A DNA stretch of 21,203 bases from a virus: the IMG/VR virus record IMGVR_UViG_3300031658_000173, positions 1-21,203 of that record; one strand, 5' to 3'. The notes under the pieces were generated by a model. The model was not told the origin of the DNA and made no database searches. It was given only the letters and a program-made list of their open reading frames with translations. Made by a program: the position numbers and the translations under genes. Positions 2,524 through 20,655 of the stretch are shown piece by piece; the stretch's first letter is position 1, and each line of letters starts with the position of its first letter.

Positions 2524-2558
2524 GTATCGCCCCCTTTTTAAACGTTAGAACTACCGAG

Positions 2559-3017: not shown

Positions 3018-3026
3018 AACGATCTC

Positions 3027-5607: not shown

Positions 5608-5629
5608 CACTAACCCCTTATGGTTGTGA

Positions 5630-5647
5630 GAGGGGGCGAACCCCCTC
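5630..5647 (-). terminator. Strong GC hairpin between capsid and adaptor genes
   Basis: A 7-bp stem (GAGGGGG with CCCCCTC) closes a 4-base loop that reads UUCG in the minus-strand transcript. It lies just after the capsid stop codon, but no U-tract follows, so it is more likely an mRNA-stabilising, processing or attenuating hairpin than a full terminator. Confidence 0.6.
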
Positions 5648-5659
5648 CGACATTAGCTA

Positions 5660-6667: not shown

Positions 6668-6703
6668 GGTGGCCTCCTTGGGTTGGTTTTATACGCAACT
6701 GCT

Positions 6704-6725
6704 GTTTACATGTTAACACGTTAAG
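6704..6725. promoter_or_regulatory. Triple phased GTNNAC site upstream of the capsid gene
   Basis: Three half-sites, GTTTAC at 6704, GTTAAC at 6712 and GTTAAG at 6720, repeat every 8 bp between the scaffold stop and the capsid ATG. Related sites occur at other gene boundaries in the window. It is probably an operator or a promoter element for the capsid gene; I see no clear -35/-10 pair beside it. Confidence 0.5.
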
Positions 6726-6727
6726 TC

Positions 6728-7690
6728 TTAGGTTTTAACGCGGCCTTCCATGTACGCAACAGTCAGTTCAGCTTCAAGTTTTTCAGCCGCATCGTACTTT
6801 CCCTGTGTATTCAAAGTGCGAACCTTGGTCCAAGCAGCGTCCACTTCGCGAGTGGAGTACACCTTAGAAGTTTGGCCAACACTCTTCGTACTAACAGAGT
6901 TAGCAGAACGGTTTGGCGCAACCTGCTTTTCGAGTTCGGCTTGGTGAGGCGGCTTAACTAGTTCACTTGGGCCAGCGACTGTTGCTTTCCACAAACCCAC
7001 GTAGTGGGCAATTGCTTCGGCGTCACCTTTATCAAATGCCTGTTGCGCTTGAACTCTGCGTGGCCCTCTAAGCATGGGATCATGCTCGTTTAACCACGCT
7101 ACCCAACGTTCATCGGTGTCGATGGTGGAAAAATCAGGCACCAAATAACGTAGGCGCTGGTTAAAATCCATCTCTCCAACTTGGTTCCCCGTGTCTGCAA
7201 GTTTACCCTGCAAATCTTGGATAACCGCGTCCTGTTTTGTAAGTCGGTCCTCGTACTGGTGAGAGACCTCTTCCGCTACACGGCGCTGAACGTCCAGCAG
7301 TTCTTCACCAAATTCGGCTCGATCTGCGTCGGTCACTAAACTGACTTTCTCCTTCGGCTTTGTCGGTTCGACGTTAAGCGCCTTTAGCTCCTCTTGGAGC
7401 CGCTTTGTTACCTCGGTCATTTCTCGCACCTGTTGGTGCAACCGTGGAACTTCAGCGTCGTACTTACCCGTAAGGGTTTTGTACTTTTGCTTAAAAGTCT
7501 CTTCCTCTAAGTCCGTCGGTGACGTGTCAGCTGGCTTTGCTTCTTTAGGTACTGGTGCTTCTTCGGTCTCTGAAACTACTTCCGTTTCCGTATCCAGCGC
7601 ATCCTGATTTAGGTTTTGCTGGGCTTCTAACGCCTGTTCGTACTCTTCGACTTCCGCAAGCTGTGCCTGCACCTGTTTTGGCAACGCCAT
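6728..7690 (-). CDS. Head scaffolding protein, 320 aa
   Basis: This strongly charged, helix-rich protein has almost no aromatic core: the first 60 residues are Gln/Glu-rich (QAQLAEVEEYEQALEAQQNL), and residues 70-105 (VPRLHQQVREMTEVTKRLQE) and 125-165 (DVQRRVAEEVSHQYEDRLTK) look like coiled coils. The C-terminus is basic (KVRTLNTQGKYDAAEKLEAE). This is the usual architecture of phage scaffolds, which fill the procapsid and leave before packaging. It stands directly upstream of the capsid gene in transcription order. TAAGGAG precedes the ATG. No protease motif is visible, so fused prohead protease activity is unlikely. Confidence 0.82.
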   Translation of the reverse strand: MALPKQVQAQLAEVEEYEQALEAQQNLNQDALDTETEVVSETEEAPVPKEAKPADTSPTDLEEETFKQKYKTLTGKYDAEVPRLHQQVREMTEVTKRLQEELKALNVEPTKPKEKVSLVTDADRAEFGEELLDVQRRVAEEVSHQYEDRLTKQDAVIQDLQGKLADTGNQVGEMDFNQRLRYLVPDFSTIDTDERWVAWLNEHDPMLRGPRRVQAQQAFDKGDAEAIAHYVGLWKATVAGPSELVKPPHQAELEKQVAPNRSANSVSTKSVGQTSKVYSTREVDAAWTKVRTLNTQGKYDAAEKLEAELTVAYMEGRVKT

Positions 7691-7768
7691 ATTGTTCTCC
7701 TTAAAGCATCAACTCTGTTTTCAGCGCCCTAGGTGTGCTGGTCCCGTGATGGTTTGCTTCGTATGCTC

Positions 7769-8002
7769 TTACGAGCGGTTTGCTACTTTGGCCGACTCCT
7801 CCATCGCCCTTAGTAAATCTTCAAATGCTTCCGCCCTACCCTGCAACCGGTGGATACTTACCGTGTCGGTTACGCTTACAAGTCTGGTCTTAGCCGACTC
7901 CGCTTCAGCCTTAAAAAGACCTACCAGAGCCGCATCGCCTGTTTCTTTAAGTCGCAGAAGAGCTTTTACGTGCTTCTGGTCACAAAGATTCAAGTCGATC
8001 AT
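7769..8002 (-). CDS. Small helical protein between portal and scaffold, 77 aa
   Basis: The protein is fully helical by inspection (DQKHVKALLRLKETGDAALV, then LFKAEAESAKTRLV and HRLQGRAEAFEDLLRAMEES) with heptad-like spacing. A small gene in this position occurs in several podovirus head modules; its product may help portal or scaffold assembly, but I cannot name it. GAGGT lies 11 bases before the ATG and is joined to a regulator-like palindrome at 8018-8038. The 78 bases between its stop and the scaffold start hold nothing recognisable except a small GCTC/GAGC hairpin at 7765-7776. Confidence 0.72.
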   Translation of the reverse strand: MIDLNLCDQKHVKALLRLKETGDAALVGLFKAEAESAKTRLVSVTDTVSIHRLQGRAEAFEDLLRAMEESAKVANRS

Positions 8003-8017
8003 GGGTGTAAACTACCT

Positions 8018-8038
8018 CACATGTGTTAACGTGTCAAC
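8018..8038. promoter_or_regulatory. Composite palindrome CACATGTG plus GTTAAC-GT-GTCAAC
   Basis: CACATGTG (8018-8025) shares its last base with an inverted repeat of two 6-bp arms, GTTAAC at 8025 and GTCAAC at 8033, separated by 2 bp. A near copy stands at 10113-10133. It lies between portal and the 77-residue gene, upstream of the latter's ribosome site. Confidence 0.55.
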
Positions 8039-8049
8039 ACGTATAGGCA

Positions 8050-10074
8050 CTACCTGCCATTAGGTCGAGGGCTCATCGTGTTGTCCTGCCGCCCACCCAT
8101 AGGAGTGCCGTCTTCTTGCAATTGCGCTGCTTGCTGCTCTTGCATCATCTGTTGCTGCTGCATCTGCTGTTGCTGAGCTATGTCTTGCTGCTTCTGCACA
8201 TCTTCTCGAGAAGGGACAAGCCTATCAATATTGGTGTTAAGATTACCCGCGACGTCTCGGAGTAGTTCAGCTGTACCCGGTAATCCAACAATCTGCTGTG
8301 CGACCGGACTTTCCAACACAAGACGGAGGAAGTCAGTCTTACGGACAGCTTCAGCTTCTTTAACGACCAACGACATTGCGCCCGTTGCAACGATCTGTAC
8401 ATCGCCAATAAGGTCTGGGTCATCTGAATACCTTAAATTTCTTTGGTACTGGCGTTCTAGCATCGGTCGCATCACATCGTGGTCGATGTTACTGATAACC
8501 TGCTTGATGCTCTTACCAGCGTTTGACATGAGCATTGAGAGGCCCGAGGAGGTCCGTCCAGCGCCGGGAACATGCTGCCCCGTCATGTACTTAGGAATAC
8601 CAGAAACCTCGTCTGAAATGGCCATAAAGCGGTCAAAGACAGTCATCAGTTCTTGGGCGTTCGAATTGGGCTGAAAGAAACTCATAGGCGGGGCTGAATC
8701 CGCGAAATCTGATTGCCGGAACTGCCATATCTTCCAAGGGTACATCTGTGTGATGTCCTCACCCGCTGGAAGACGGCTTATATTTACGCCGACCTGTGGA
8801 CCTGAAGAGATGCCCATATTATTTGCTAACGCCCGAGCAGCAGCGTTGCACATATTCTGAGCGTCCATACAAAGGTCGGCGACCCCATTGCCGTCAACAC
8901 GGCCTGGAACTTTTTCAAATGATGTTATGTAGTAAGGCTTGCGGCCAATCGGGTCGTAGTTAAGAACCGCACGTATCACGGTGTTATTAACCATCCAGAT
9001 TTCGCAAGGGTAGGATTTCTGCGGGTCTTCAATTTCTTCGTCGTCCAAGCCCCACTCGAGTAGCAGCTCCCCAGGAACTGAGTCCCATAGCTGGAGCGCA
9101 GCAACGACATCGGAGTGGCCTTCGTCGAAATCTATACCACTAACGTCTTCCATTAAACTGTCGTCGTGGTCCAGCCAGCTAAAGCCACCCGAGCCGAAGT
9201 CAGAGAGTATGGAACGCACCGCGTCCTCGTCGTAGCCTTCAACGCCTATCATGTTCTCCACATCGTCGCGTGTCAGGTGGTGCAGCTCAATGACAGGCAT
9301 GTTCTGGACGTCGTCGCCCCATGGTGCCCAGTAAAACTTAAACGGGTCGACGCGTTCCCACTCATCGCGGAGTACCTCAACAACGCCTAGACCGCCGTCA
9401 ACGTACTTCATGGTCTTGCGTTTTCGGGGGATCGGACCCTTGAGGATCGCGTATGGGAATGTGGCGATGTCGTTCGTAAACTCAAACAGAGCCTTAACGA
9501 AGCCGCCCTCGACCATCTGGTCTTCCATCTTCGTTTCCATCCGCTCGACGCGCTTTTCCGCTTCGAACTTCATGGCCCTCATGGCGGTGTCTTTCATGCC
9601 AGACGCAAGGTCTTTTAACTCCGCAGGGTCTATCGGTTCGTTCCCAGCGTCGTAGTACTGCATGAGGTTTTGCTTCATTATGTTCTGCATCGCTTGCGCG
9701 ACGTCTGGAGCAACTTCTGGTATCGGTGTGGCAGACAGGGACCACGGCTTATCAGCGCCAGTCCCTAGAAGCGTATCTCGCAACCAGGCAGTAGCAGTCC
9801 TGCACTTAGAACTAACAATACCCATAAATATTTCAGAGCCACCTTGCTCTTTGATCTGTGCGAGTTTGGCAGGGTCATACTCCATATTTCTAGCGCGAAC
9901 ACACGCGGCCAGTCGCTGCTCAAGGTTTTGTTGGTGGTGATCCCGCAAAACCTCCCAGCGCTTTCGCGTATGCGAAGACAACCCGGCTATAATCGGCGAG
10001 TTCTGGGTAACAGAATTAGCACGGTTTGCCTCTGCCTCGAGGGTAGAGGCACTTGCAACAGGGATTAGTGACAT
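8050..10074 (-). CDS. Portal protein, 674 aa, phiEco32/SU10-like
   Basis: The portal ring is the DNA gateway and the nucleus of head assembly. Length, position directly after terminase and motifs agree: HTRKRWEVLRDHHQQNLEQR near residue 35, TATAWLRDTLL near 95, DPFKFYWAPWGDDVQN near 240 and PYYITSFEKVPGRVDGNGVA near 375, followed by DAQNMCNAAARALANNMGIS. These are typical of the large portals of phiEco32-like podoviruses. The centre carries a very acidic loop (DHDDSLMEDVSGIDFDEG). The C-terminus is a polyglutamine/methionine segment (QQQQMQQQQMMQEQQAAQLQ), often flexible and inside the head. GTGAG is the only Shine-Dalgarno-like sequence before the ATG, so translation may start weakly. Confidence 0.88.
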   Translation of the reverse strand: MSLIPVASASTLEAEANRANSVTQNSPIIAGLSSHTRKRWEVLRDHHQQNLEQRLAACVRARNMEYDPAKLAQIKEQGGSEIFMGIVSSKCRTATAWLRDTLLGTGADKPWSLSATPIPEVAPDVAQAMQNIMKQNLMQYYDAGNEPIDPAELKDLASGMKDTAMRAMKFEAEKRVERMETKMEDQMVEGGFVKALFEFTNDIATFPYAILKGPIPRKRKTMKYVDGGLGVVEVLRDEWERVDPFKFYWAPWGDDVQNMPVIELHHLTRDDVENMIGVEGYDEDAVRSILSDFGSGGFSWLDHDDSLMEDVSGIDFDEGHSDVVAALQLWDSVPGELLLEWGLDDEEIEDPQKSYPCEIWMVNNTVIRAVLNYDPIGRKPYYITSFEKVPGRVDGNGVADLCMDAQNMCNAAARALANNMGISSGPQVGVNISRLPAGEDITQMYPWKIWQFRQSDFADSAPPMSFFQPNSNAQELMTVFDRFMAISDEVSGIPKYMTGQHVPGAGRTSSGLSMLMSNAGKSIKQVISNIDHDVMRPMLERQYQRNLRYSDDPDLIGDVQIVATGAMSLVVKEAEAVRKTDFLRLVLESPVAQQIVGLPGTAELLRDVAGNLNTNIDRLVPSREDVQKQQDIAQQQQMQQQQMMQEQQAAQLQEDGTPMGGRQDNTMSPRPNGR

Positions 10075-10084
10075 AAATAAATCT

Positions 10085-10133
10085 CACATGTGGCGTCGAC
10101 TACGCAGTAGCACACATGTGCTCACGCGTCAAC
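10085..10133. promoter_or_regulatory. Two CACATGTG palindromes and a GTTGAC-type site before portal
   Basis: CACATGTG occurs at 10085-10092 and 10113-10120. The second one is fused to GCTCAC (10120) and GTCAAC (10128) arms with a 2-bp centre. The fused part matches the element at 8018 in 19 of 22 positions (10113-10134 against 8018-8039). It fills the short gap between terminase and portal, so it could control portal expression. Confidence 0.55.
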
Positions 10134-10136
10134 AGA

Positions 10137-11552
10137 TTACGTCCAGCCACCGGCTGAGACCTTGGACACGTTTTTCCTCTGAGACGTCCACGCTTGCGCC
10201 CCGAAGGTCTCACCGCCGTCTGCGTGTAGGCACAGATACTGGAACGCATCGGCTACATCTGACCACGGGTGGGACTTCTCTGGCTTCTCGTCACGTGCGC
10301 CTTTTGTGTTTATTTTGTACCGATACTTCCCGGCCAACGCCATCACCAACGGCGACGCACTACCAGCGTCGGCGACGAAACCGTATTTACCATCGACCAC
10401 ACGGGTCAGGTATTTTTCAACCGCTGCTATCCGTCCAGCTATAGAGTTAGTCCTCGCGGGCTTCACGACGAACCCCTCGTTTTTGTATATGTCAGCCACG
10501 GTTCTCTCGTCCGTCTGGACCCGCTGGAACGCAGCAGGGTCGATTATAACGAGGGCTTGCCTGCCGGGAAACTTATTGGCCATCAGTGGTTTGAGCCTCT
10601 CACGGACGAACCTGAGAGCTCCCATGCCGTCTGAAATTAGCGCGTCGTACACAACCAGTCGCCCGTCGTACCCAACCTGCCCTATCACAGCCGCTGGTGT
10701 CAGTCCTGCGTCGACACCTATCAGCAGTGGGGTGTCCGAGAACATGGGTTTAAGCGGCTCTTTGGACGAGTGGACTGTACGGTCAAATGATCTAAAGACG
10801 GGTTGCCCAGATAAACTCTTACCAAACTCCGCGTGTATATACACCGCGATCCAGTCTTCGGTCTTACCTTTGGCTAGGTTGTCGTAGTAATCATCGGGCA
10901 GAAACTTAGTCCAATCGGCCTCTGGAGCAAGACCTGACGGTTGTATCGTAACATGCAAGTTATCAGGCGGCTCTGTGAGCAGCGTTTCCCAGAAAGTGTC
11001 CATGTCAGGGGGGTTCGTCATACCCCAAATGTGCATATTTGGCATTCCATCGTCCGTTTTGCACCCTACCCCGTTCATCATCTTGTCGGGATACCGCCCC
11101 ACACGACCTTGAGCGGCATTGTAGATATCGGGGTGAATTTCCCTAAATTCGTCGAAAATGATGAAACTAGCCTGTAATGAGAGCAATCTGCGCACATCGT
11201 TGGCGTCGTCTAGCCCGCGAAACAGCACTTCGCACTCAATATCACCCACTTTTAGGACGAATTTGTACTCCGTTTTGAGAAAACTCCCCATAACACCGTC
11301 TGGAATCCACTTGAGGAAGTCAGGAATGGACGTATCACGCAGCTGCTCTCGCGTATTTCGCACCCAAATGGTCCTAGAACGCCTAATTCCATCCTTACAC
11401 GGGGCCATTCTCGCCGCATGGTGCAGGATTTTCATGATACCCGCCGTGGTTTTAGTCGACCCGACTGGTCCTACCGCCAAGGATATGAACTTTTCCGAGT
11501 AAAAGAAGTCGTCTAGGGACGCGATTACCTCGAAATCTATCTCATGTATCAT
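10137..11552 (-). CDS. terL: Terminase large subunit, 471 aa
   Basis: This is the motor and nuclease that packages DNA through the portal. The Walker A site is GPVGSTKT at residues 28-35, an unusual form with Thr in place of the glycine before the lysine. Walker B is FIIFDE at 130-135, and a MTNPP coupling motif is at 178-182. The C-terminal RNase H-like nuclease has acidic residues in IGVDAG (Asp281), VIIDPA (Asp338) and SDVADAFQYL (Asp432/Asp435). Length is normal for the family. The ATG at 11552 overlaps the upstream gene by 11 bases, with AGAGG about 7 bases upstream. Both enzyme centres appear complete, so the gene is probably functional. Confidence 0.95.
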   Translation of the reverse strand: MIHEIDFEVIASLDDFFYSEKFISLAVGPVGSTKTTAGIMKILHHAARMAPCKDGIRRSRTIWVRNTREQLRDTSIPDFLKWIPDGVMGSFLKTEYKFVLKVGDIECEVLFRGLDDANDVRRLLSLQASFIIFDEFREIHPDIYNAAQGRVGRYPDKMMNGVGCKTDDGMPNMHIWGMTNPPDMDTFWETLLTEPPDNLHVTIQPSGLAPEADWTKFLPDDYYDNLAKGKTEDWIAVYIHAEFGKSLSGQPVFRSFDRTVHSSKEPLKPMFSDTPLLIGVDAGLTPAAVIGQVGYDGRLVVYDALISDGMGALRFVRERLKPLMANKFPGRQALVIIDPAAFQRVQTDERTVADIYKNEGFVVKPARTNSIAGRIAAVEKYLTRVVDGKYGFVADAGSASPLVMALAGKYRYKINTKGARDEKPEKSHPWSDVADAFQYLCLHADGGETFGAQAWTSQRKNVSKVSAGGWT

Positions 11553-12003
11553 GCTTCAGCCTCTTAAACAGGCGGACGTCGAAGTGCGCGACAGGCTCAA
11601 CATCTGCACCATCCCTCGGGTTCCGCGTTCTTCCTGAAAAATCTATGGTGTAGTTTTCGTTGACACCGGTGTAGAAGATGCCATCGACCATCTTAACGAC
11701 AAGCAGAAACCGTACCCCGATCTCGTTTGCCAGCTGCTTGCCATTGATGACCTTGTTCAACGATATGAAGACCGTCGGGTACCGCCGCAACTCAGTTGAC
11801 CGACACTTGATCTCAACCAACGCCTTTATGGTCCTACCCACGCACAGCGCGTAGTCAAGGTGGTAAGAGATTGGTAGCTTCTTACCTTCACAGCGCCACT
11901 GCTTGGTCAGTGCTGCTAGAACTTCGCCTTCATTGTACTTATCGGACGCAGTCTCATACATCGGACGCATGGGGGATTGCCTGACCTTCAATGGTGAGAG
12001 CAT
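11542..12003 (-). CDS. Putative PD-(D/E)XK-type nuclease, 153 aa
   Basis: Residues 44-70 read SYHLDYALCVGRTIKALVEI and continue with KCRS: an Asp, a hydrophobic strand and an E-I-K triplet, the core of PD-(D/E)XK enzymes. An upstream helix with Glu (YNEGEVLAALTKQW) and a downstream helix after SLNKVINGKQLANEIGVRFL complete the expected alpha-beta order. Such folds serve restriction, Holliday junction cleavage or DNA end processing. Here, between a packaging gene and terminase, it might trim or debranch DNA before packaging. The ATG at 12003 has AAGGA 8 bases upstream but overlaps the upstream gene by 50 bases; ATGs at 11970 or 11961 are possible alternatives. The fold is inferred from motif spacing only. 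Confidence 0.65.
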   Translation of the reverse strand: MLSPLKVRQSPMRPMYETASDKYNEGEVLAALTKQWRCEGKKLPISYHLDYALCVGRTIKALVEIKCRSTELRRYPTVFISLNKVINGKQLANEIGVRFLLVVKMVDGIFYTGVNENYTIDFSGRTRNPRDGADVEPVAHFDVRLFKRLKHDT

Positions 12004-12310
12004 CGGAATGATCCTTGGCTCTGGTGATGTTTATGACCACTTGAGGGCCACCATTGCCGAGGTCTACCTTCGTATCAGGCTCCAACCTGCCCATTTTGTT
12101 CAGCATTTTCTGAAATTCTATACGAGCGGTGGGATTTATGTCGGGATTTTGCATGTGGCGGAACAGATTGTCCAAGTTCACTGCGCCCAGGAGACGCGCA
12201 AAGGTCTCGATGAGTGTGGGATCGTCCTCGATAGCCAAGAGTTCTGCCGGGGATAGGAGGGCTTTGTCTACAAGGAGGGGGTCAAGGACTTGGTTTACAC
12301 GTTGATTCAT
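11954..12310 (-). CDS. Putative small terminase / packaging protein, 118 aa
   Basis: This is the first clear gene of the leftward operon, two genes before the large terminase, where small terminases usually stand. It is helical up to residue 80 (NQRVNQVLDPLLVDKALLSP, LIETFARLLGAVNLDNLFRH, TARIEFQKMLNKMG) and then has a strand GGPQVVINITRA like the tail segment of many phage small terminases. I see no convincing N-terminal helix-turn-helix, so it may recognise DNA differently or be another packaging factor. I chose the ATG at 12310 (AGGTGA 5 bases upstream) and not the GTG at 12334, which falls inside a palindromic site. Identification rests mainly on position. Confidence 0.6.
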   Translation of the reverse strand: MNQRVNQVLDPLLVDKALLSPAELLAIEDDPTLIETFARLLGAVNLDNLFRHMQNPDINPTARIEFQKMLNKMGRLEPDTKVDLGNGGPQVVINITRAKDHSDALTIEGQAIPHASDV

Positions 12311-12334
12311 AGCTTCACCTGTTAACACGTACAC
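12293..12334. promoter_or_regulatory. Two GTNNAC palindromes flanking the packaging gene start
   Basis: GTTTAC (12293) with GTTGAT (12301), and GTTAAC (12321) with GTACAC (12329), each with a 2-bp centre, lie on both sides of the ATG at 12310. The two sites are 28 bp apart, so a dimeric regulator could bind both. The inner site also encodes residues 2-6 of the protein. Confidence 0.45.
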
Positions 12335-13037
12335 AAGTTCCGGTCAATCGGGGGGTGATTTGGGTATTTGGCGGGTCTATTTGGCGGGTTGAGAACAAAA
12401 AGGGAACAATTGGGATTTTAGGGGGTCGCGATGAACGGAACACATAAGGGCTGGGTGGGGGGCCGGGGGGGCCTCGGTCAGTGGGGGGGTGTCCATGCCG
12501 CGCCATAGTTGTAAGGCCGGAAACATGGTCCTTGCTGTAGCCACTGCTCTCCTTTTGGTCCGCAGGTACGCCTCACGCGCTGATGAACCGCGCGTTAAAG
12601 ATAACGGGTTTAATTGCGCCCAGTCCAGTAGCAAGCCATATGTACGAGGCGCGTAGCGCTTCCCCGACGTCAGGCTCAAGAAGCTGTGATGGTCAATACA
12701 TCTCCGTGTAGTTTATCGGACGGGATACCAGTACGAGCGACACCGACTTATCGGGTTACGAGAAAAGTATTTGCTCGTCAAAAAAGCGCAACGTGCAGCA
12801 TGGTTACATGCTTGGCCCTCCAAAGGGGTGATGTCACTGATCCACTGGCGCACCAGACAATAGTAATATTGCACGGTTTGCAAAACGCATGACACATTGT
12901 GTACGGCGCGTGGTTAGTATGTCTGGCCAACCAGTCCTCAGTTTATCTTTGTCTGACCGCTCGATCCGTACCTTGTGTCAATGTAGGGCGCATCAATCGG
13001 TGCATCCTAGATTGATACAAGCTTAAGGAGCTTAACC
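12335..13037. other. Divergent non-coding region with G-tracts
   Basis: This 700-bp stretch separates leftward and rightward genes. Its left part (12347-12492) is very G-rich on the plus strand, with many runs of 3-7 G, including GGCCGGGGGGGCC near 12460 and GGGGGGG near 12484. TATTTGGCGGGT occurs twice (12365 and 12378, 13 bp apart). The middle (12500-12990) has no gene with a usable ribosome site; I see only small imperfect hairpins such as GTTA/TAAC at 12594-12605. Promoters for both arms must lie here or nearby, and a replication origin or packaging site is possible. I cannot point to a convincing -35/-10 pair. Confidence 0.6.
12992..13033 (+). promoter_or_regulatory. Two leader inverted repeats, the second holding the ribosome site
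   Basis: ATCAATC (12992-12998) pairs perfectly with GATTGAT (13010-13016) over an 11-base loop. Two bases later AAGCT (13019-13023) pairs with AGCTT (13029-13033), and the Shine-Dalgarno AAGGAG (13025-13030) lies across that loop. The first may be an operator or a transcript-protecting stem. The second could hide the ribosome site, although five base pairs is weak. Confidence 0.5.
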
Positions 13038-13526
13038 ATGCTTACTCGTAAAGAATTGAACAAGAAAATCTCTGGCGTTCGTCGTTCGACTAAAGCGTTC
13101 CGCGCTAACATCCAGATGTTGCTTATCGAATGTGCTGCTCACGCATATGTCGACGGTCAAACTACGCCAATGGCGCAGCTGTACGACGCTGCTAACGGCG
13201 CTGACCGCCTTGCCATGGCTAAATGGGCGCAGAAGTTCGGCTTCTCACAAGCCAAAGCTGACGGCAAGTTTGGCCTGATCCGCGCTGCTGTTAACGATGC
13301 TGCGTTCGACGACGGCGACGCTTTGATCGAGTACCTGACTGAACACGCAACAAGCTGGTTCGACATGGGCAAGACTAAGTCCGATATTGCCAAAGATGTA
13401 GACATCGCTGTGGCCCTTATGGCACTCGCTAAGCGCTGCGCCAAAGCTAAAGCTAATGGTGGTAAAATCACCGCTGAACGCATCGCTGTGACTGCCGCGT
13501 TCAAAGAGCTTCAAGCCGCGTGCTAA
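13038..13526 (+). CDS. Unknown 162-aa protein, likely highly expressed
   Basis: This is a helical protein of unknown family with a basic N-terminus (MLTRKELNKKISGVRRSTKA). The centre has MAKWAQKFGFSQAKADGKFG and a helix pair LIRAAVNDAAFDDGDALIEY. The Lys/Ala-rich end is ALAKRCAKAKANGGKITAER. Codons are those preferred in highly expressed proteobacterial genes (CGT for Arg, GCT for Ala, few rare codons), and AAGGAG lies 7 bases upstream. It is the first rightward gene and is followed by a strong terminator, so it forms its own transcription unit. The basic ends and dense helices would suit a nucleic-acid-binding or host-takeover protein, but nothing identifies a function. Confidence 0.85.
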   Translation: MLTRKELNKKISGVRRSTKAFRANIQMLLIECAAHAYVDGQTTPMAQLYDAANGADRLAMAKWAQKFGFSQAKADGKFGLIRAAVNDAAFDDGDALIEYLTEHATSWFDMGKTKSDIAKDVDIAVALMALAKRCAKAKANGGKITAERIAVTAAFKELQAAC

Positions 13527-13537
13527 CGACGAATTAC

Positions 13538-13575
13538 CTACAAGACAGTGATTTGGCTGTCTTGTAGTTTGTCTT
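13538..13575 (+). terminator. Rho-independent terminator
   Basis: A perfect 11-bp stem (CTACAAGACAG with CTGTCTTGTAG) closes an 8-base loop and is followed by TTTGTCTT. It ends the 162-residue gene. The stem is symmetric, but no good T-run exists on the other strand. Confidence 0.85.
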
Positions 13576-13816
13576 AAAGCTACATGTAACGAATTCAACA
13601 GCTTGACCCCCCCTTTAAGACAATAAGACAATAAGACACTAATAAATAATAACTGAGAGTGTGAAAAAAGAGAGAGGTGCCGTGCTCACTTTTAGAGCGC
13701 TTCACTCTCCCCGCTTGCTTCTCTCAGCCTCTGTCTTATTGTCTCAAAGCCTTAATATCAGACACTTACGAGGTACCTGCTGTCTTGTAACTTTGTCTTG
13801 TTGCTACTTTTGTCTC
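13557..13816. repeat. AAGACA/TGTCTT repeat cluster in the 315-bp intergenic region
   Basis: Besides the terminator stem, AAGACA occurs three times at exact 8-bp steps (13617, 13625, 13633), and its complement TGTCTT at 13570, 13732, 13781 and 13794, with TGTCTC at 13740 and 13811. An AGACAATAAGACA arm near 13626 has an inverted copy at 13732-13744, and each arm is followed in its own sense by CTGAGAG. GAGAGTG (13655) can also pair with CACTCTC (13703). A 27-28 bp imperfect copy of the terminator's 3' arm (13557-13583) stands at 13780-13807. No gene with a usable start lies here. It could be an origin, an RNA element or a regulator-binding array. Confidence 0.7.
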
Positions 13817-13841
13817 ACAAACCATCCCATAGGAGTTTCTC

Positions 13842-14231
13842 ATGGCTAGAACCGCCCACCAGATTTCGCTGAGCAGATTGCCCAAAACTACTTTCGCCCC
13901 TGCGACCCGAGTAGGTAAAAACCAAAACTCGTGGACTAAATCGTCTGCCACTTACGCGGATCGTGTCAAAGCTCGTTCCCGCTCGTTCGTCGCCACAAGT
14001 AAATTCCGTGAGCAACTCGCTAAGGGTAAAGTATTGCGCGACGCCGACGGCCAATGGCATGTCTGCCACAACGACGGTCTCGGTTTCTTCTGGAGCTACG
14101 CCAAGTTCGTTTCTGTCACTATCGCTGTCGAGTGGATGGCCTGTGCTGACATGTCCGACCGTAAGACGTTCTGGGCCAAGCACCCTAAGTCGGTACGCAA
14201 GCTGACTGGTGGCCCGTTCCAACCAACCTAA
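13842..14231 (+). CDS. Unknown 129-aa basic protein
   Basis: The N-terminal 60 residues are basic and low in structure (ARTAHQISLSRLPKTTFAPA, then ADRVKARSRSFVATSKFREQ). They are followed by a compact part with DADGQWHVCHNDGLGFFWSY and a tail RKTFWAKHPKSVRKLTGG. I recognise no family. The Trp/Phe-rich C-terminal half suggests a small folded domain, while the basic N-terminus could touch nucleic acid. AGGAG lies 8 bases before the ATG. It is the first gene after the repeat cluster and leads five small genes with short gaps or overlaps, so it was probably transcribed from within that cluster. Confidence 0.75.
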   Translation: MARTAHQISLSRLPKTTFAPATRVGKNQNSWTKSSATYADRVKARSRSFVATSKFREQLAKGKVLRDADGQWHVCHNDGLGFFWSYAKFVSVTIAVEWMACADMSDRKTFWAKHPKSVRKLTGGPFQPT

Positions 14232-14245
14232 ATATGACAGGAGGT

Positions 14246-14259
14246 GTTAACGTGTTTAC
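14246..14259. promoter_or_regulatory. GTTAAC-GT-GTTTAC site over a start codon
   Basis: A 14-bp member of the recurring inverted-repeat family (arms GTTAAC and GTTTAC, 2-bp centre) directly covers the GTG start of the small membrane protein. Bound protein there would block transcription through the gene start. Confidence 0.4.
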
Positions 14260-14437
14260 ACTTAGTATATTTATATCTCGACTCATCAACCCCACCATCT
14301 CACTTCTGGCTTCCGTCTTCTTTGGATTACTCGTCGGCTGGGTTGGTATCAACTGGGTCACTGGCTGCGGAGAAATGGCCATCACCATGTACGGCGCACA
14401 CATTCCCGGCCACTGCGTGCTCTATCCATTTAACTGA
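14252..14437 (+). CDS. Small membrane protein, 61 aa, GTG start
   Basis: One long hydrophobic segment (ISLLASVFFGLLVGWVGINW, residues 16-35) flanked by a positively charged residue before it suggests a single inner-membrane helix. The C-terminal 25 residues carry two cysteines (Cys39, Cys56) and could lie in the periplasm. I chose the GTG at 14252 because AGGAGG ends 7 bases before it; the ATG at 14234 would place that ribosome site inside the gene. Size and topology would suit a pinholin, spanin part or exclusion protein, but the lysis enzyme is 6 kb away and nothing proves the role. Confidence 0.6.
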   Translation: MFTLSIFISRLINPTISLLASVFFGLLVGWVGINWVTGCGEMAITMYGAHIPGHCVLYPFN

Positions 14438-14453
14438 ACAGGGAGTTACCCAC

Positions 14454-14651
14454 ATGAAATGGTACATCGCCACCGCCCAACTGAAATTTGCCCGATACGG
14501 GTTCATCGGCTGTCCCTTAACTGACGCCCAACTGACCGCACTGTACAAACTCAACGTCAAACTCGACGACGTCTACGGCGTAGGCTGCGACGTTGTCTGC
14601 GGCCACACCTTTAACCAAGCACTGGAGCACGTACGCCATGAAACGCTTTGA
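14454..14651 (+). CDS. Unknown 65-aa protein
   Basis: The reading frame is open far upstream, but the ATG at 14454 is the credible start: GGGAG lies 8 bases upstream and the earlier part overlaps the membrane gene in another frame. The product MKWYIATAQLKFARYGFIGC has a small alpha-beta look, with three cysteines (20, 49, 53) and a GCDVVCGHTF segment. No family is recognised. It overlaps the next start by 14 bases, so translation of the two is probably coupled. Confidence 0.65.
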   Translation: MKWYIATAQLKFARYGFIGCPLTDAQLTALYKLNVKLDDVYGVGCDVVCGHTFNQALEHVRHETL

Positions 14652-15144: not shown

Positions 15145-15218
15145 AGGGGTAAAGTGTTACGGCAGCACGTCGGATTCCAAATCCGAAAGACTGGGTTCAA
15201 TTCCTAGTACCCCTGCCA
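15145..15218 (+). tRNA. tRNA-Trp (anticodon CCA), encoded CCA end
   Basis: The cloverleaf is complete. The acceptor is AGGGGTA with TACCCCT, and the D-arm GTGT/GCAC has a TACGGCA loop. The anticodon stem is TCGGA/TCCGA with loop TTCCAAA (anticodon at 15177-15179). The variable loop has 4 bases, and the T-arm CTGGG/CCTAG has a TTCAATT loop. Discriminator G73 and A1-U72 agree with bacterial Trp identity, and the CCA tail is encoded (15216-15218). The short D-loop is the only deviation. The anticodon reads UGG and not UGA, so it gives no sign of stop-codon recoding. Confidence 0.93.
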
Positions 15219-15314: not shown

Positions 15315-16337
15315 ATGACGAGCATCAATCAGTTTATAGAAATCGTTACCCGTACCCAAACGGTTAGCCCAAAGTTTGTCCCTATGGCTTGGGGCGAACC
15401 GGGAATTGCCAAATCAGCCAGCGCCCGTGTGATAGCGAAGAACCAAAACATTCCCGAAGATCGCTACATGGACGTCAACCTCGTCAACCATGAGGTAGTA
15501 GACTTCAACGGTATCCCACGTATCATCGACAGCGGGTCCGGCCCAGTGACCGAGTTCGTCCCGACCGACATCTTTGCCAAGTTCCGCAAGGGTACAGGAC
15601 CGGGCTTCATTAACATCGAGGAATTGCCACAGTCCGACAAGTCACACCAGACTTGGACCGCTGGCTTTGTATTAGACCGCAGGACTGCCACGTTCGAGCT
15701 AGACCCCGAGGTGCGCATCATGTGTACAGGCAATCGTGTACAAGACCGTAGCGGAGCCAAAGCCCTACTCGCTCACCTCTGCTCACGCATGACCCACTTC
15801 GACATAGCAGTAGACACCGAAGCCGCACTCGTATGGATGCTAGACAACGGCGTCGACCCTATGGTTGTGGCTTTCTTGCGACTACGCCGTGACCTTTTGC
15901 AGAAGTTCGACCCAGCTGCCAGAGCAAGCCCCACATGCCGAGCATGGACACAGTTTGGTACAGAAATACCACGTGACTTACCTCGAGACCTGTACCTTAT
16001 GGCTGCTACCGGCAAACTTGGTGAGGGTGCTGCGACCGAGTTAGTTGCCGCTCGAGACATGATGCACAAGATGCCTAACATCGACGAGATACGCGCCAGA
16101 CCTGACGCTGTCGAAGTGCCTAGTGAGCCATCCGTTTGCTACGCCGTCGCTACTTGTATGTCTATGTCTACAACGACGGACCTGTTCGCCGCTGACATGC
16201 AGTACATCAGCCGGATGAAAGCCGATTTCCAGATGGTCTACGTGACCGACGCGACGCGTCTTAATCCAGACCTGCAAGATTCCAAAGATTACATCAACTG
16301 GTGTCTCGCCAACCAAAACACATTTATGGGAGCTTAA
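15315..16337 (+). CDS. MoxR/CbbQ-type AAA+ ATPase, 340 aa
   Basis: A AAA+ motor, probably hexameric, that remodels a partner protein by ATP hydrolysis. Walker A is GEPGIAKS (residues 27-34), with Ala where the family has Gly before the lysine. The Walker B position is GFINIEEL (97-104), Glu-Glu in place of Asp-Glu. Sensor 1 is CTGNR (137-141), and a presumed arginine finger is LCSRMTHFDI (Arg158). A C-terminal lid of about 140 residues includes ASPTCRAWTQFG, like the SPR.W motif of the MoxR group. Length is standard. AAGGAG lies before the ATG. The operon also encodes a VWA/metallopeptidase partner, the typical companion of MoxR ATPases. Confidence 0.88.
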   Translation: MTSINQFIEIVTRTQTVSPKFVPMAWGEPGIAKSASARVIAKNQNIPEDRYMDVNLVNHEVVDFNGIPRIIDSGSGPVTEFVPTDIFAKFRKGTGPGFINIEELPQSDKSHQTWTAGFVLDRRTATFELDPEVRIMCTGNRVQDRSGAKALLAHLCSRMTHFDIAVDTEAALVWMLDNGVDPMVVAFLRLRRDLLQKFDPAARASPTCRAWTQFGTEIPRDLPRDLYLMAATGKLGEGAATELVAARDMMHKMPNIDEIRARPDAVEVPSEPSVCYAVATCMSMSTTTDLFAADMQYISRMKADFQMVYVTDATRLNPDLQDSKDYINWCLANQNTFMGA

Positions 16338-16340
16338 CTA

Positions 16341-16532
16341 ATGAGGTTCAACAGTTACAGTATCGTCCCCGCCCCTAAAGGTGTTTCCATCAAGCCTAAT
16401 AACGGTGACGCAGATTTAGAAGTCTGCATATCCGTAGCTGACGGGCAACTCACGGTCAGTGTCTATCACGACGACGGGATCATGGACGACGCAATCGCGT
16501 CACACTCATATAAAATGGAGAAAGTAACATGA
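16341..16532 (+). CDS. Unknown 63-aa protein
   Basis: A small beta-rich, acidic protein (DADLEVCISVADGQLTVSVY, then HDDGIMDDAIASHSY) set 3 bases after the ATPase stop. GGGAG precedes its ATG, and its end overlaps the start of the next gene as ATGA. No family is recognised. The overlap on both sides places it within the ATPase operon, so it may be a small subunit or regulator of the complex. That is inference. Confidence 0.7.
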   Translation: MRFNSYSIVPAPKGVSIKPNNGDADLEVCISVADGQLTVSVYHDDGIMDDAIASHSYKMEKVT

Positions 16533-17563
16533 ATATGCAAGCATCACTTCAAGCGTCAATCCAAGCAGCCGTCGAGGCAAGCAAGAAAATATCCGTCGAC
16601 GACTCACCACCTGTTAACGCGTCACCACCTGTCTACTCCCAACTAGTCGACCCCGTCGACGCGGTTCCATTCCCCCATAATTTTAGCTCCGACGACGACG
16701 TTGTCTTCAAGAACATCAGTGACCGAGCTATGACGTTCAAGCTCAGCATGTCTAAGTTCAACGTTAACGTCAAAGATGTTGACCGCACTGTTGAGTACGG
16801 CGCGGGTCACGTGACCAAGCGGTTGTTCAAAGGTACAGACAACCTCGTAGCCAAAGCAGCAGCTGCCTACGGCGCACTATATACCTACGTTCACGATAAC
16901 ACACTGCCGTGGGATGTTGGCGTCCGTATCGTCAACGCGACGTTCTTCAAGGAGTTCTCCGCCCAAGTTCGAGTGCTACGGGCCGAGTGCGAAAGAGTAG
17001 TATCACTCGTAGAAGCTGACTGGGGTAACATCAAGGCCGCAGACTTCCGCCGTATGGAGCAGATAGGTATCGCTACTAACAACCCTGACCTTGCCAAATG
17101 GTCTGACTACCCCGACGACATCGGTGCCTGTTACAGCGTCACAACGTACATAGAACCCATTGCTCAGACGTCGAGCATAGACCCACGTTGGGGCGTCGAC
17201 CCATCGGACGTCGAGGAGTACAACCAGCGGCTGCGCGATGCCAACACCAACAGCGGCAAGCATGTAGTCTCTAACCTCATAGCACCACAAGAAGCTGCCA
17301 TAGCTAAGCTGTCGGTTCCTATCGGTTCCGATAACGATACGTTCCGTGCCACGCTTATCGGTAACATGGTTGGCGTCGCCGACCGGATGTCACGAGCGAA
17401 CGTCTGCGACGACCCAGCGATTGCTCAGCAGATCACCGACCTATCCAGCTTGGCTGGTAAGTTAGATGCCAACCACGACATTCTGCGCAACTCACAGACC
17501 GCACGTAACCAAGCGGTTGCTGACATAAGTTCACTGGTCAACCAGATGCGGGGGTTCGCGTGA
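16529..17563 (+). CDS. Partner protein of the ATPase module, 344 aa (possibly DUF3150-like)
   Basis: The N-terminal 50 residues are Ala/Ser/Pro-rich and disordered. The rest is helical and includes FKLSMSKFNVNVKDVDRTVE, GALYTYVHDNTLPWDVGVRI, then FKEFSAQVRVLRAECERVVS and, near residue 195, KWSDYPDDIGACYSVTTYIE. The order helix, (Y)..LP...G.RI, long helix with an LR.E.E..V core, then DYP is similar to DUF3150 proteins that lie beside MoxR ATPases and VWA proteins in bacterial and mobile gene clusters; I have not confirmed this. A role as adaptor between ATPase and VWA protein is inferred. The start is ATG 16529 (GGAGAAAG upstream), overlapping the previous stop, and the stop overlaps the next start (TGATG). 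Confidence 0.75.
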   Translation: MNMQASLQASIQAAVEASKKISVDDSPPVNASPPVYSQLVDPVDAVPFPHNFSSDDDVVFKNISDRAMTFKLSMSKFNVNVKDVDRTVEYGAGHVTKRLFKGTDNLVAKAAAAYGALYTYVHDNTLPWDVGVRIVNATFFKEFSAQVRVLRAECERVVSLVEADWGNIKAADFRRMEQIGIATNNPDLAKWSDYPDDIGACYSVTTYIEPIAQTSSIDPRWGVDPSDVEEYNQRLRDANTNSGKHVVSNLIAPQEAAIAKLSVPIGSDNDTFRATLIGNMVGVADRMSRANVCDDPAIAQQITDLSSLAGKLDANHDILRNSQTARNQAVADISSLVNQMRGFA

Positions 17564-17706
17564 TGCGAATTGAATGTCCAAATTGTGAGGGTGAGGGCCA
17601 AGCATACTACTCGTTCCCTGACCACGAAGAGAGGCTGGCGCAGTGTGAAGACTGCGTCGGTGGTGGCCGCGTAGATGTAGACGACGAAGAGGAGGAAGCA
17701 GCATGA
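17563..17706 (+). CDS. Two-knuckle zinc protein, 47 aa
   Basis: The tiny product MRIECPNCEGEGQAYYSFPD has a first CxxCxGxG knuckle (Cys5, Cys8). After a short loop comes a second, CEDCVGGG (Cys28, Cys31), then an Asp/Glu tail (VDVDDEEEEAA). Four cysteines in this layout are the zinc site of DnaJ-type cysteine-rich domains. The start overlaps the previous stop (TGATG) and its end overlaps the next ATG. It may bind the partner proteins of the ATPase module or unfolded clients. The zinc site is visible and the role is inferred. Confidence 0.75.
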   Translation: MRIECPNCEGEGQAYYSFPDHEERLAQCEDCVGGGRVDVDDEEEEAA

Positions 17707-17771
17707 CGAGCAAAGACATGGACCGCCTATTGGACGAGGTATTCGCCAAAGTATTCGGGAGTAAATGGTGA
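17703..17771 (+). CDS. Mini protein, 22 aa
   Basis: The frame starts at ATG 17703 with AGGAGG 7 bases upstream, an excellent ribosome site placed in the end of the zinc-protein gene. It reads MTSKDMDRLLDEVFAKVFGS plus KW, an amphipathic helix with Leu, Val and Phe on one face. The start overlaps one stop codon as ATGA and its stop overlaps the next start as TGATG. These overlaps make it a probable translated link in the operon. The helix could be a subunit, or the frame may serve mainly to couple ribosomes onto the next gene. Confidence 0.55.
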   Translation: MTSKDMDRLLDEVFAKVFGSKW

Positions 17772-17980
17772 TGGCTAAATGGACACTCGACAAGGGGGCC
17801 GACGAAATCTCAGACCAGACTAGGTTTTCACAACTCCACGCCGAGATCAAAGCGTTGCAGAGTAAAAACTCCCGACAGCGCAACGACATCGCACGGCTCA
17901 ACCAGAGCTTGGAACGTGTCACCAAAGACAAGATGTCTTTACTCAGTGACATCAAATTTCTTAGAGGAGAAACACAATGA
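17771..17980 (+). CDS. Coiled-coil protein, 69 aa
   Basis: Residues 18-65 form one amphipathic helix with heptad spacing (FSQLHAEIKALQSKNSRQRN, then DIARLNQSLERVTKDKMSLL), so a parallel coiled coil is likely. An upstream in-frame ATG at 17765 would add two residues. I prefer ATG 17771, which overlaps the previous stop and has GGGAG 9 bases upstream. The stop overlaps the start of the VWA/metallopeptidase gene (ATGA), so expression is coupled to it. It probably bridges or oligomerises components of the module; that is inference. Confidence 0.72.
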   Translation: MAKWTLDKGADEISDQTRFSQLHAEIKALQSKNSRQRNDIARLNQSLERVTKDKMSLLSDIKFLRGETQ

Positions 17981-19140
17981 GCGTACTAACGATGCAAGCA
18001 CCACTCGTCGATCCGACCGTCGACATGGTGTCTTTGCTTGCCAACGTGTCCAAGGCTAAGTCGCTACTCGTACTAGACCGCCCGTTCTATGGTATGGCTG
18101 TAAGCAAGCGACCGATCATCTACACAGATACTGTCCCGACCGCTGCTATGACAGCCAAGGGTCAGATGTACATGAACCCCGCGTGGTGTAGCAAGCTGAC
18201 TGTTCGCAACCTGATGTTCTTACTGGCCCACGAAGCACTGCACTACATGCTCTGCCACTCAATTCGTATGGGTGTACGTAAACACACAGCGTGGAACATC
18301 GCATGTGACAAGGTTATCAACGACCTTTTAGTCAACGACAAGGTTGGCGACCCAATACCAGACGGCGTCTACATGGAGGGTGCCCGTGATCTATCAGCCG
18401 AGCAGCTGTACGACGAAGACGACGGGAAAGACGGCCCAGTCGGCCCTATCGGCAACGACGTTGGCCCTCCAGTCGACGACGACGGCACTCCTCTCGACGA
18501 TGCAGAGGTACGTGAGATAGAGACGCAAGCTAAGATCGAGATCGTCCAGTCCGCCAAAGCTGCCAAAGCCGCTGGCAAGTTGCCCGGTTCTATCGAACGC
18601 ATCGTAGACGAACTTGTTAACGTGACAACACCTTGGTTCAGTATCCTCGAGCCTTTCATGGTTGGTAAGATCAAGGACGACATCACATGGAACAGACTTA
18701 ACAAGCGGTTTATCTCGCAAGGCGTACACCTACCTAGCCGCTCTACCAAGCCTACTATGGGAGTTGCTGTTCTTGTGCTCGACTCATCATGTTCTGTGTC
18801 TGAAGAAGAGTTCGCTTCTTACAACGCGCACATCAATCGCATCTTGGAGACGTGTAACCCCGAGATGGTTCACGTGATCTACTGCGATACAAATGTGACT
18901 GGCCACGACGAATACACAGCCGACGACCTGCCTATCAACATACGAACCGTCGCTGGCGGTGGCACCAGGTTCAAGCCAGCGTTCGACTACATCGACGACC
19001 AAGACCTAGAACCCGAAGTTGTTGTCTATCTGACCGACGGCTACGGCGACAGCAATTTCACCACCCCCCACGAAACTATCTGGCTAACCACCGGATCAAC
19101 TGAACTAGCCTTTGGCACTGTCATCAAATTTGAGGAGTAA
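17977..19140 (+). CDS. Metallopeptidase-like VWA protein (DUF2201 type), 387 aa
   Basis: The N-terminal domain has the zinc motif HEALH (residues 85-89), preceded by MYMNPAWCSKLTVRNLMFLL and followed by WNIACDKVINDLL (106-118). This is the layout of the putative metallopeptidase domain joined to DUF2201. An acidic linker (DEDDGKDGPVGPIGND, 146-161) leads to a VWA-like domain with a complete MIDAS: DSSCS (269-273), Thr330 in GGGTRF and Asp354 in LTDGYGD. VWA proteins are the usual partners of MoxR AAA+ ATPases, which pull on or remodel them. Both metal sites have their key residues, so the gene appears intact. The start overlaps the previous stop. Whether it cleaves protein is unproven for the family. 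Confidence 0.9.
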   Translation: MSVLTMQAPLVDPTVDMVSLLANVSKAKSLLVLDRPFYGMAVSKRPIIYTDTVPTAAMTAKGQMYMNPAWCSKLTVRNLMFLLAHEALHYMLCHSIRMGVRKHTAWNIACDKVINDLLVNDKVGDPIPDGVYMEGARDLSAEQLYDEDDGKDGPVGPIGNDVGPPVDDDGTPLDDAEVREIETQAKIEIVQSAKAAKAAGKLPGSIERIVDELVNVTTPWFSILEPFMVGKIKDDITWNRLNKRFISQGVHLPSRSTKPTMGVAVLVLDSSCSVSEEEFASYNAHINRILETCNPEMVHVIYCDTNVTGHDEYTADDLPINIRTVAGGGTRFKPAFDYIDDQDLEPEVVVYLTDGYGDSNFTTPHETIWLTTGSTELAFGTVIKFEE

Positions 19141-19145
19141 TCAAC

Positions 19146-19814
19146 ATGGCATACGTAAGAAAAACGGCCACTCTTGTCGAAGATATCACCGACCAAGTAA
19201 CTAAAATGCGTAGCGTCGCCGAGGCGCGGTACGACGTCGACAACATAGCGCTCGACCCTTCCCAGCTAACCGAACTTGTAGAAGCAGCGCACGTAACTGC
19301 GTGGAGTGAGGCACCAGAACTACGCCGCACGATGCCCCCAGCGTGGCGCTCAGAACCCGCTAGTGCTGACCTGCGTGTGTACGGGCCAAACAACGAAACC
19401 ACGGCTATGATCAAGTACAGCGTCCAAGGAACCTACAACCTACCTGCTACCACAAGGTATTCACGCCGCGAGCCAGCCATCGACATAAAATACGAGAACC
19501 TGTCCCCTTCCCTAAAATCGTGCGTCGACGACTGCGCGGGGAACGCCGAGAAGCTCAAAGAAATCCATGCCAAGTTTAGCACTGTAAGAAATCAGTTGGT
19601 CGCGTACATGGAACAGCACGCTTCTCTCAACGCTGCGCTCACCGAGATGCCCCAGCTAGAGATGTATGTGCCGCAAAAGTACATGCAACGCATTCGTGCA
19701 GCATCTGAACCCCGCGCAAAAGTACAGCACTCAAACGTTGTCGCTCTCAACATCGACGTCGACGCTCTCACTGCTGCCGCCATCACCCACCGCATCGCAA
19801 CTGCAACCTCGTAA
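19146..19814 (+). CDS. Unknown 222-aa protein
   Basis: The protein begins MAYVRKTATLVEDITDQVTK and contains a helix TELVEAAHVTAWSEAPELRR and a beta-like middle (ADLRVYGPNNETTAMIKYSV). The C-terminal half is helical: LSPSLKSCVDDCAGNAEKLK, then IHAKFSTVRNQLVAYMEQHA and LNAALTEMPQLEMYVP. I do not recognise the family. GAGGAG lies 8 bases before the ATG and the gene follows the VWA gene by 5 bases, so it is in the same operon and could be a client or cofactor of the ATPase module. An alternative is a replication or recombination accessory factor. Confidence 0.72.
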   Translation: MAYVRKTATLVEDITDQVTKMRSVAEARYDVDNIALDPSQLTELVEAAHVTAWSEAPELRRTMPPAWRSEPASADLRVYGPNNETTAMIKYSVQGTYNLPATTRYSRREPAIDIKYENLSPSLKSCVDDCAGNAEKLKEIHAKFSTVRNQLVAYMEQHASLNAALTEMPQLEMYVPQKYMQRIRAASEPRAKVQHSNVVALNIDVDALTAAAITHRIATATS

Positions 19815-19825
19815 GGAGAAACACC

Positions 19826-20269
19826 ATGAAACAGAACATCAGCAAAGCCGCCCGTGAAAACGGTCTAACAGCATCACTTGCGCACAATCGCATAAAGAGC
19901 GGGTGGTCTTTTGACGACGCCGTTTCCATCCCAGCTAGGGGGTACAAATCCATGAAGAAGTCGAAAGCTGAAATCGTCTGGGCTTATCTTCTGAAGAACC
20001 CGTTGGCTACATACGTGGAAGTCGCCAAGGAAACAGGTGTTTCTTACAGTTACGCCTACGCCCTAAAGACTAAAATCTCCACGCCCCGCGAAGTGTTCGA
20101 GGCCGAAGCCGCAGACAACACGTCAGAACTGTTTACTCGGGAGCAACGGAAGAAGATTATGATCGAGGGTTTTGCGAATAGAAAAGCCCAGATCGCGGAT
20201 TTCGAAGCTAACAAATCAGTCGGGAAAACTATCGGCAACGCCATCCGCCGTTGGTGGAAAGCCGCGTAG
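19826..20269 (+). CDS. Double helix-turn-helix protein, 147 aa
   Basis: Two DNA-binding-like helix pairs are visible. The first is at residues 4-33 (ISKAARENGLTASLAHNRIK, then SGWSFDDAVS), a pattern used by many phage HTH proteins to read DNA. The second is at 47-77 (EIVWAYLLKNPLATYVEVAK, then ETGVSYSYAYALKTKI). The C-terminus is basic (REQRKKIMIEGFANRK and IRRWWKAA). It probably binds DNA as a transcription regulator; it could be the protein that reads the recurrent GTNNAC sites, but no data link them. AAGGAG lies 9 bases before the ATG. The stop is 2 bases before the lysis gene. Confidence 0.75.
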   Translation: MKQNISKAARENGLTASLAHNRIKSGWSFDDAVSIPARGYKSMKKSKAEIVWAYLLKNPLATYVEVAKETGVSYSYAYALKTKISTPREVFEAEAADNTSELFTREQRKKIMIEGFANRKAQIADFEANKSVGKTIGNAIRRWWKAA

Positions 20270-20271
20270 CG

Positions 20272-20655
20272 ATGATCGCGATGACCTGCTTAGCACTTAA
20301 CGTATATTTCGAAGCTCGTTCGGAGCCTATCGTTGCTCAGTTCGCAGTGGCGCAAGTCACGATGAACCGCGTTAAGTCAGACCTCTACCCAGACAATGTA
20401 TGTGATGTTGTCTGGGACAACCGCCAATTCTCTTGGACGCACGACGGTAAGAGCGACAAGCCCAAAGAAACATCTGCGTGGGAACGTGCGCAGTGGGTGG
20501 CCAAGATAACGCTTGAGGACAACGACAACAGTATCTCCGTCGTTCCGAATGACACGGTCCACTACCACGCCGACTACGTCAAACCTTACTGGATAACGAG
20601 TTGTGTACGCATCACCCAGATAGGACGGCACATTTTTTATAGGAGGAAGTTATGA
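20272..20655 (+). CDS. Cell-wall hydrolase, SleB/Hydrolase_2 family (endolysin), 127 aa
   Basis: The full small SleB-type domain is present: CLALNVYFEARSEPIVAQFA with the presumed catalytic Glu in YFEAR, then VAQVTMNRV and CDVVWDNRQFSWTHDG. It closes with HYHADYVKPYW and IGRHIFYRR. Enzymes of this type cut peptidoglycan glycan strands. No signal peptide or membrane segment is visible, so a holin would be needed; none is obvious next to it. I chose ATG 20272, two bases after the previous stop; a TTG at 20251 or an ATG at 20281 are alternatives because no strong ribosome site is seen. Its end overlaps the next start (ATGA). Confidence 0.87.
   Translation: MIAMTCLALNVYFEARSEPIVAQFAVAQVTMNRVKSDLYPDNVCDVVWDNRQFSWTHDGKSDKPKETSAWERAQWVAKITLEDNDNSISVVPNDTVHYHADYVKPYWITSCVRITQIGRHIFYRRKL

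Follow-up and report, generated by a model that had tools for sequence, protein, structure and literature searches.

The plus strand of a marine phage fragment of 21.2 kb carries a gene set predicted to encode a three-part AAA+ machine, composed of a MoxR-type ATPase, a DUF3150-like protein, and a metallopeptidase fused to a VWA domain. We consider the chances about even that this machine acts on a host complex or a DNA-establishment target in the early stage of infection, and not in virion assembly. What this analysis adds is the conserved third partner and the presence of the trio on conjugative plasmids; DUF2201 and DUF3150, for their part, are already named families.

Gene layout of the window

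The fragment (21,203 nt; record IMGVR_UViG_3300031658_000173), referred to here as the window, carries head, portal, terminase and tail-fibre genes on its minus strand and, on its plus strand, a cluster of seven genes that follows a tRNA-Trp gene. The closest named relative is the Rhizobium phage RHph_TM3_14A, with tblastn identities of 36% for the portal and 40.5% for the capsid; the nearest relative seen is a 4.2-kb viral contig (IMGVR_UViG_3300046103_000105), the capsid of which is 99% identical. The tRNA-Trp gene (cca) occupies positions 15145-15218, just 5' of the ATPase gene. Relatives belonging to the clade of the window were reached with portal and capsid queries, and scans of viral contigs with the metallopeptidase-VWA protein alone or with the 344-aa protein alone gave no matches. 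We refer to the ATPase as P0001, to the 344-aa protein as P0003, to the metallopeptidase-VWA protein as P0007, and to the product of a 222-aa gene further downstream as P0008.

All seven overlapping or nearly touching open reading frames of the original prediction are present on the plus strand, with the same coordinates. Neighbouring genes are separated or overlap by only a few bases: the stop of the ATPase gene (16337) is followed after a gap of 3 bp by the start of a 63-aa ORF (16341), overlaps of 4 bases are found at 16532/16529, 17706/17703 and 17980/17977, the end of the 344-aa gene (17563) overlaps the start of the next ORF (17560 or 17563), and the junction of the 22-aa and 71-aa ORFs (17771/17765) is a 7-base overlap. 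The extent of the cluster was underestimated, in that the tight packing continues into an eighth, conserved gene (19146-19814) that had been omitted. Further along, on the early strand, we found a gene for a cell-wall hydrolase (Hydrolase_2/SleB-like; 20251-20655) that starts with TTG inside the last part of the preceding gene and possibly has a role in lysis.

The ATPase and the metallopeptidase-VWA protein

P0001 (340 aa; 15315..16337, plus strand) was originally recognised as a MoxR-type AAA+ ATPase, and profile comparisons bear this out: it matches phrog_1297 ("ATPase") at 7e-58, and an end-to-end profile alignment of its family, that of N4 gp24, with MoxR-annotated ATPases has an E-value of 1e-65. 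P0001 itself has no match among the Pfam AAA families; its relatives from cyanophage MinM2 and plasmid pSYSA pass the AAA_5 threshold and match the P0001 family with an E-value of 1e-65. The Walker A motif GEPGIAKS (residues 27-34; 15393..15416, plus strand) has G27, P29, G30, K33 and S34 invariant in 15 relatives. In the acidic pair of Walker B, E102-E103 (15618..15623, plus strand), E103 is invariant and E102 is replaced by Asp in N4-like relatives. Across the alignments of P0001 the invariant residues are P29, G30, K33, E103, N140, R158 and R209, so that, with roles assigned by alignment position, the protein possesses Walker A, the Walker B Glu, the sensor-1 Asn, the Arg finger and the sensor-2 Arg.

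P0007 (387 aa; 17977..19140, plus strand; N4 gp25 family, phrog_1314) consists of a metallopeptidase domain (DUF2201_N) fused to a VWA domain (DUF2201), as judged from Pfam, PHROG and alignments. Its scores lie far above the Pfam gathering cut-offs, with 116 bits against 23.2 for DUF2201_N (PF13203) and 62.7 bits against 26.4 for DUF2201 (PF09967), and both motifs from which the protein had been singled out are present. The zinc-peptidase motif HEALH spans residues 85-89 (18229..18243, plus strand), with H94 and D111 (in W106-N-x-A-x-D111-xx-I-N) also invariant, and the MIDAS motif DSSCS spans residues 269-273 (18781..18795, plus strand) and is intact, D269-x-S271-x-S273 being completed by T330 and D354. 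In 12 diverse phage homologues, with identities down to 22%, H85, E86, H89, D111, D269, S271, S273, T330 and D354 are all invariant; HExxH and the complete MIDAS are likewise invariant in 12 members of the clade. Of 13 further or repeated copies that were scanned, 12 have HExxHxxxxH and one, from Rhodothermus, does not. No solved structure was retrieved with the profiles built from the ATPase and VWA sequences. At the level of predicted folds, the VWA part of P0007 resembles solved VWA domains (Z 12.2, rmsd 2.4 over 124 residues), and the same comparison with solved structures did not confirm the N-terminal peptidase fold.

Many RefSeq records of Schitoviridae, as well as phrog_1314, name the homologues of gp25 "HNH endonuclease". 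We rejected this assignment for P0007, which is a DUF2201 protein, and consider the label a propagated error, because the domains are those of a metallopeptidase and a VWA protein.

The ATPase-VWA pair in phages

P0001 and P0007 are each found in about 450-490 phage records, and the original expectation that the ATPase and the metallopeptidase-VWA protein stay together across phages holds in our survey of their co-occurrence. They are homologues of gp24 and gp25 of phage N4, which are encoded in the same order and near each other and align over almost their full length, at 22-24% identity to the proteins of the window; N4 differs in lacking the third gene. In N4-like phages gp24 and gp25 belong to a core of 14 genes and have been reported as being of unknown function (PMC4193335). 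A pair with the same domains, including the N-terminal metallopeptidase on the VWA protein, has been described in jumbo phages (group 2.2) by Iyer et al. 2021 (PMC7824862), who proposed a role in virion assembly; their passage on the pair mentions no DUF3150-like third part. The original view that no phage machine of this kind had been reported thus finds no support, and, because of the N4-like core genes and this jumbo-phage account, we do not regard the ATPase-peptidase core as new.

The ATPase and VWA trees agree in broad outline, in that both recover the same main clades with strong support, while the presence of the third gene requires at least three changes when mapped on them. The pair is thus a heritable unit, to which the third part is optional. 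It occurs without the third gene in N4-like phages, in phage G, in a close relative of the window (G019), and in the Synechocystis plasmid pSYSA, where the two-gene form, a MoxR ATPase and a VWA-like metallopeptidase, occupies positions 3961-6239 of the locus. In some N4-like phages the two genes are parted by several kb of unrelated genes, so their co-translation is not essential.

The third component

The product of the 344-aa gene, P0003 (16529..17563, plus strand), gave no match as a single sequence in Pfam, PHROGs or the phage collection, and its status as an orphan was dropped once relatives from the clade supplied a profile. It is found in 14 records, and in all 12 relatives that possess both P0003 and the VWA gene (two of them partial) the order is ATPase, P0003, VWA protein; in three of these 12 the large genes touch, with gaps or overlaps of less than about 22 bases. 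The original description of a helical partner of 344 residues is therefore right as to the partner, which is conserved, and needs correction as to the fold: the predicted model (pLDDT 80, pTM 0.68) is alpha/beta with long helices.

The relationship of P0003 to DUF3150, which had been guessed at, is distant and is suggested by both fold and profile similarity. Foldseek matches the model of P0003 to viral proteins, among them one named DUF3150 (E 8.5e-13, TM 0.65/0.76), the clade profile finds the counterparts in MinM2 and in plasmids with E-values from 1e-33 to 4e-16 (two of these are annotated as DUF3150), and a profile-profile comparison with hhalign extends over 275 columns (99.9%, E 8e-34); this full-length similarity of profile and fold places P0003 in a wider DUF3150-like superfamily. 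A search of the PDB with the P0003 fold found nothing better than chance. The Pfam family itself (PF11348; gathering cut-off 24.9 bits) matched neither P0003 nor its 13 relatives, nor did a six-frame search reveal a match, and one plasmid copy that bears the name DUF3150 also falls below the cut-off (22.1 versus 24.9 bits). Since P0003 lies below the Pfam cut-off, we use the name DUF3150-like and leave it outside the family proper. Judging from its sequence relatives and gene order, P0003 is a true third part of the putative machine, unlike the small ORFs considered next.

The small ORFs and the downstream gene

The remaining four genes of the cluster, all on the plus strand, encode products of 63 aa (16341..16532), 47 aa (17563..17706), 22 aa (17703..17771, with AGGAGG upstream) and 71 aa (17765..17980, a coiled coil). 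The 47-aa product had been described as a zinc knuckle protein; its zinc motif is CxxCxGxG, which is DnaJ-like. In a codon-usage test trained on the long ORFs of the window and scored against out-of-frame stretches, the fractions of controls scoring as high as these ORFs were 0.0005, 0.007, 0.009 and 0.003, respectively, so that all four are probably coding.

No relative of any of the four was found in 15 loci of the clade, in RHph or in CRP-7. The corresponding gaps in relatives hold other genes or nothing, and in three close relatives one large gene follows directly on another, leaving no room for small ORFs. We therefore regard these positions as a variable slot for inserts and not as a source of subunits, contrary to the original proposal that the small genes encode coupled subunits. 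That all seven genes form one complex, as first envisaged from their tight coupling in the window, is accordingly very improbable, given that related loci contain no relatives of the small ORFs and have their slot otherwise filled or empty. In two relatives, L183 (4930-5385) and L182 (4580-5053 of the reverse complement), the slot of the zinc-motif and coiled-coil ORFs is occupied by a related protein of about 150 aa that begins with MGYRS.

The eighth gene (P0008, 222 aa; 19146..19814, plus strand) has relatives in nine loci; throughout the phage clade it follows the VWA gene, either at once or after a short distance. Pfam and PHROG contain no family for it, and candidate P0008-like genes in the CRP-7, RHph and N4 loci were rejected, as none matched above chance.

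The trio in a cyanophage, plasmids and bacterial contigs

The order ATPase, DUF3150-like protein, VWA protein recurs outside the clade, in MinM2 (from the freshwater cyanophages), in plasmids of Rhodovastum, Cupriavidus and Robbsia, and in four of 16 bacterial contigs. Comparison of coordinates places the VWA gene directly downstream of the third gene in all 20 of the plasmid matches listed. The sets of MinM2 and of the Burkholderiales plasmids thus comprise the same three families in the same order, although their sequences are distant from those of the window.

Three plasmid copies are adjoined by type IV secretion genes, and one of the three also follows PRTRC genes. In the plasmid of Robbsia (1-14633 of the locus) the trio lies between the PRTRC genes and the type IV secretion cluster, a placement hinting at a role in the plasmid backbone. 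Not all plasmid copies are intact: in a plasmid of Paraburkholderia acidisoli the ATPase match is split between two frames, with no gene listed there, and in one of Burkholderia cenocepacia (3673-7000 of the locus) an IS21 element splits the DUF3150-like gene between the ATPase and VWA genes. The open-access literature that we searched mentions neither DUF3150 nor the trio, which therefore appears to be undescribed there; this absence is weak evidence, because only open-access papers were covered.

Proposed function and alternatives

The trio shares with NorQ-NorD (PMC13036017), RavA-ViaA and CbbQ-CbbO the combination of a MoxR ATPase with a MIDAS-bearing VWA partner, and presumably the general mechanism, whereas those systems act on Rubisco or respiratory enzymes. 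The vWA-MoxR ternary conflict systems also add a third component to a MoxR-vWA pair; they occur mainly in multicellular prokaryotes, and their third parts (e.g. VMAP) differ from P0003 by name (Kaur et al. 2020, PMC7159879).

Our mechanical model for the trio is borrowed from NorQD, in which the VWA domain docks into the MoxR ring and twisting takes place (PMC13036017). The ATPase is expected to form a ring, on which the VWA end of P0007 would dock, with the metal site of the MIDAS gripping a target protein, while the DUF3150-like protein would be the third, dedicated subunit and would probably act as an adaptor by which the target is selected or held. Twisting or pulling driven by ATP would then expose the target or the peptidase site, and the HExxH domain would cut or reshape the target. 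We know of no such HExxH peptidase domain in the VWA partners of NorQ-NorD, RavA-ViaA or CbbQ-CbbO.

As to when and on what the machine would act, the genomic context points to the early phase. A gene for DNA polymerase A lies 1.8-8 kb downstream of the module, on the same strand, in eight of eight relatives, and the N4-like copies adjoin genes for dCTP deaminase or DNA polymerase. Together with the plasmid copies, this position favours a role in early takeover or DNA establishment over virion assembly, the putative target being a host complex or the element's own DNA-establishment proteins. A more specific version, which we put forward only tentatively, is that lytic phages and conjugative plasmids use the ternary machine for ATP-driven extraction and cutting of a host complex that otherwise blocks the establishment of incoming DNA.

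Clearly less likely than the early role is that the pair is a virion-assembly chaperone with a processing peptidase, which would remodel and trim structural proteins in the late phase. Assembly chaperones are known among MoxR-VWA pairs, and the pair of the Acidianus two-tailed virus offers an analogy, in addition to the proposal published for the same domain pair in jumbo phages (PMC7824862). However, plasmids make no virions, so virion assembly cannot be the general function of a trio that they also carry; moreover, the module heads the replication side of the genome, on the strand opposite to the head and tail genes, and the N4-like copies have dCTP deaminase or DNA polymerase genes as neighbours. 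A trio shared by plasmids and phages may still have been reused for virion assembly in the latter.

We find it unlikely that the trio works as a chaperone for metal insertion or cofactors in the manner of NorQD or CbbQO, with HExxH holding a metal for delivery without cutting, and so matures a metalloenzyme of the phage or plasmid. NorQD does carry out metal insertion (PMC13036017), and the set of HExxH and D111 could carry a metal, but the general-base residue E86 is invariant, although pure metal transport would not need it, and we recognised no shared metalloenzyme gene in the neighbourhoods listed. Still less probable is a narrower form of the takeover model in which the machine would dismantle a host immunity complex acting on incoming phage and plasmid DNA. 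Such counter-defence would agree with the occurrence of the trio in both lytic phages and conjugative plasmids and with its location near entry or establishment genes; PADLOC, the models of which cover defence and not counter-defence, gave no match, and, as the pair belongs to the core of N4-like phages, its job seems to be a general one and not tied to particular hosts.

Should the more specific version be true, in which a host complex is extracted and cut, phages and plasmids would share one device for taking over their hosts. What gp24 and gp25 do in the N4-like phages, to whose core they belong, has been a long-standing gap. The conserved third partner and the finding of the trio on conjugative plasmids narrow it down, since any function proposed has to suit elements that form no virions as well, and the gap is now directly testable with phage N4 and E. 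coli K-12.
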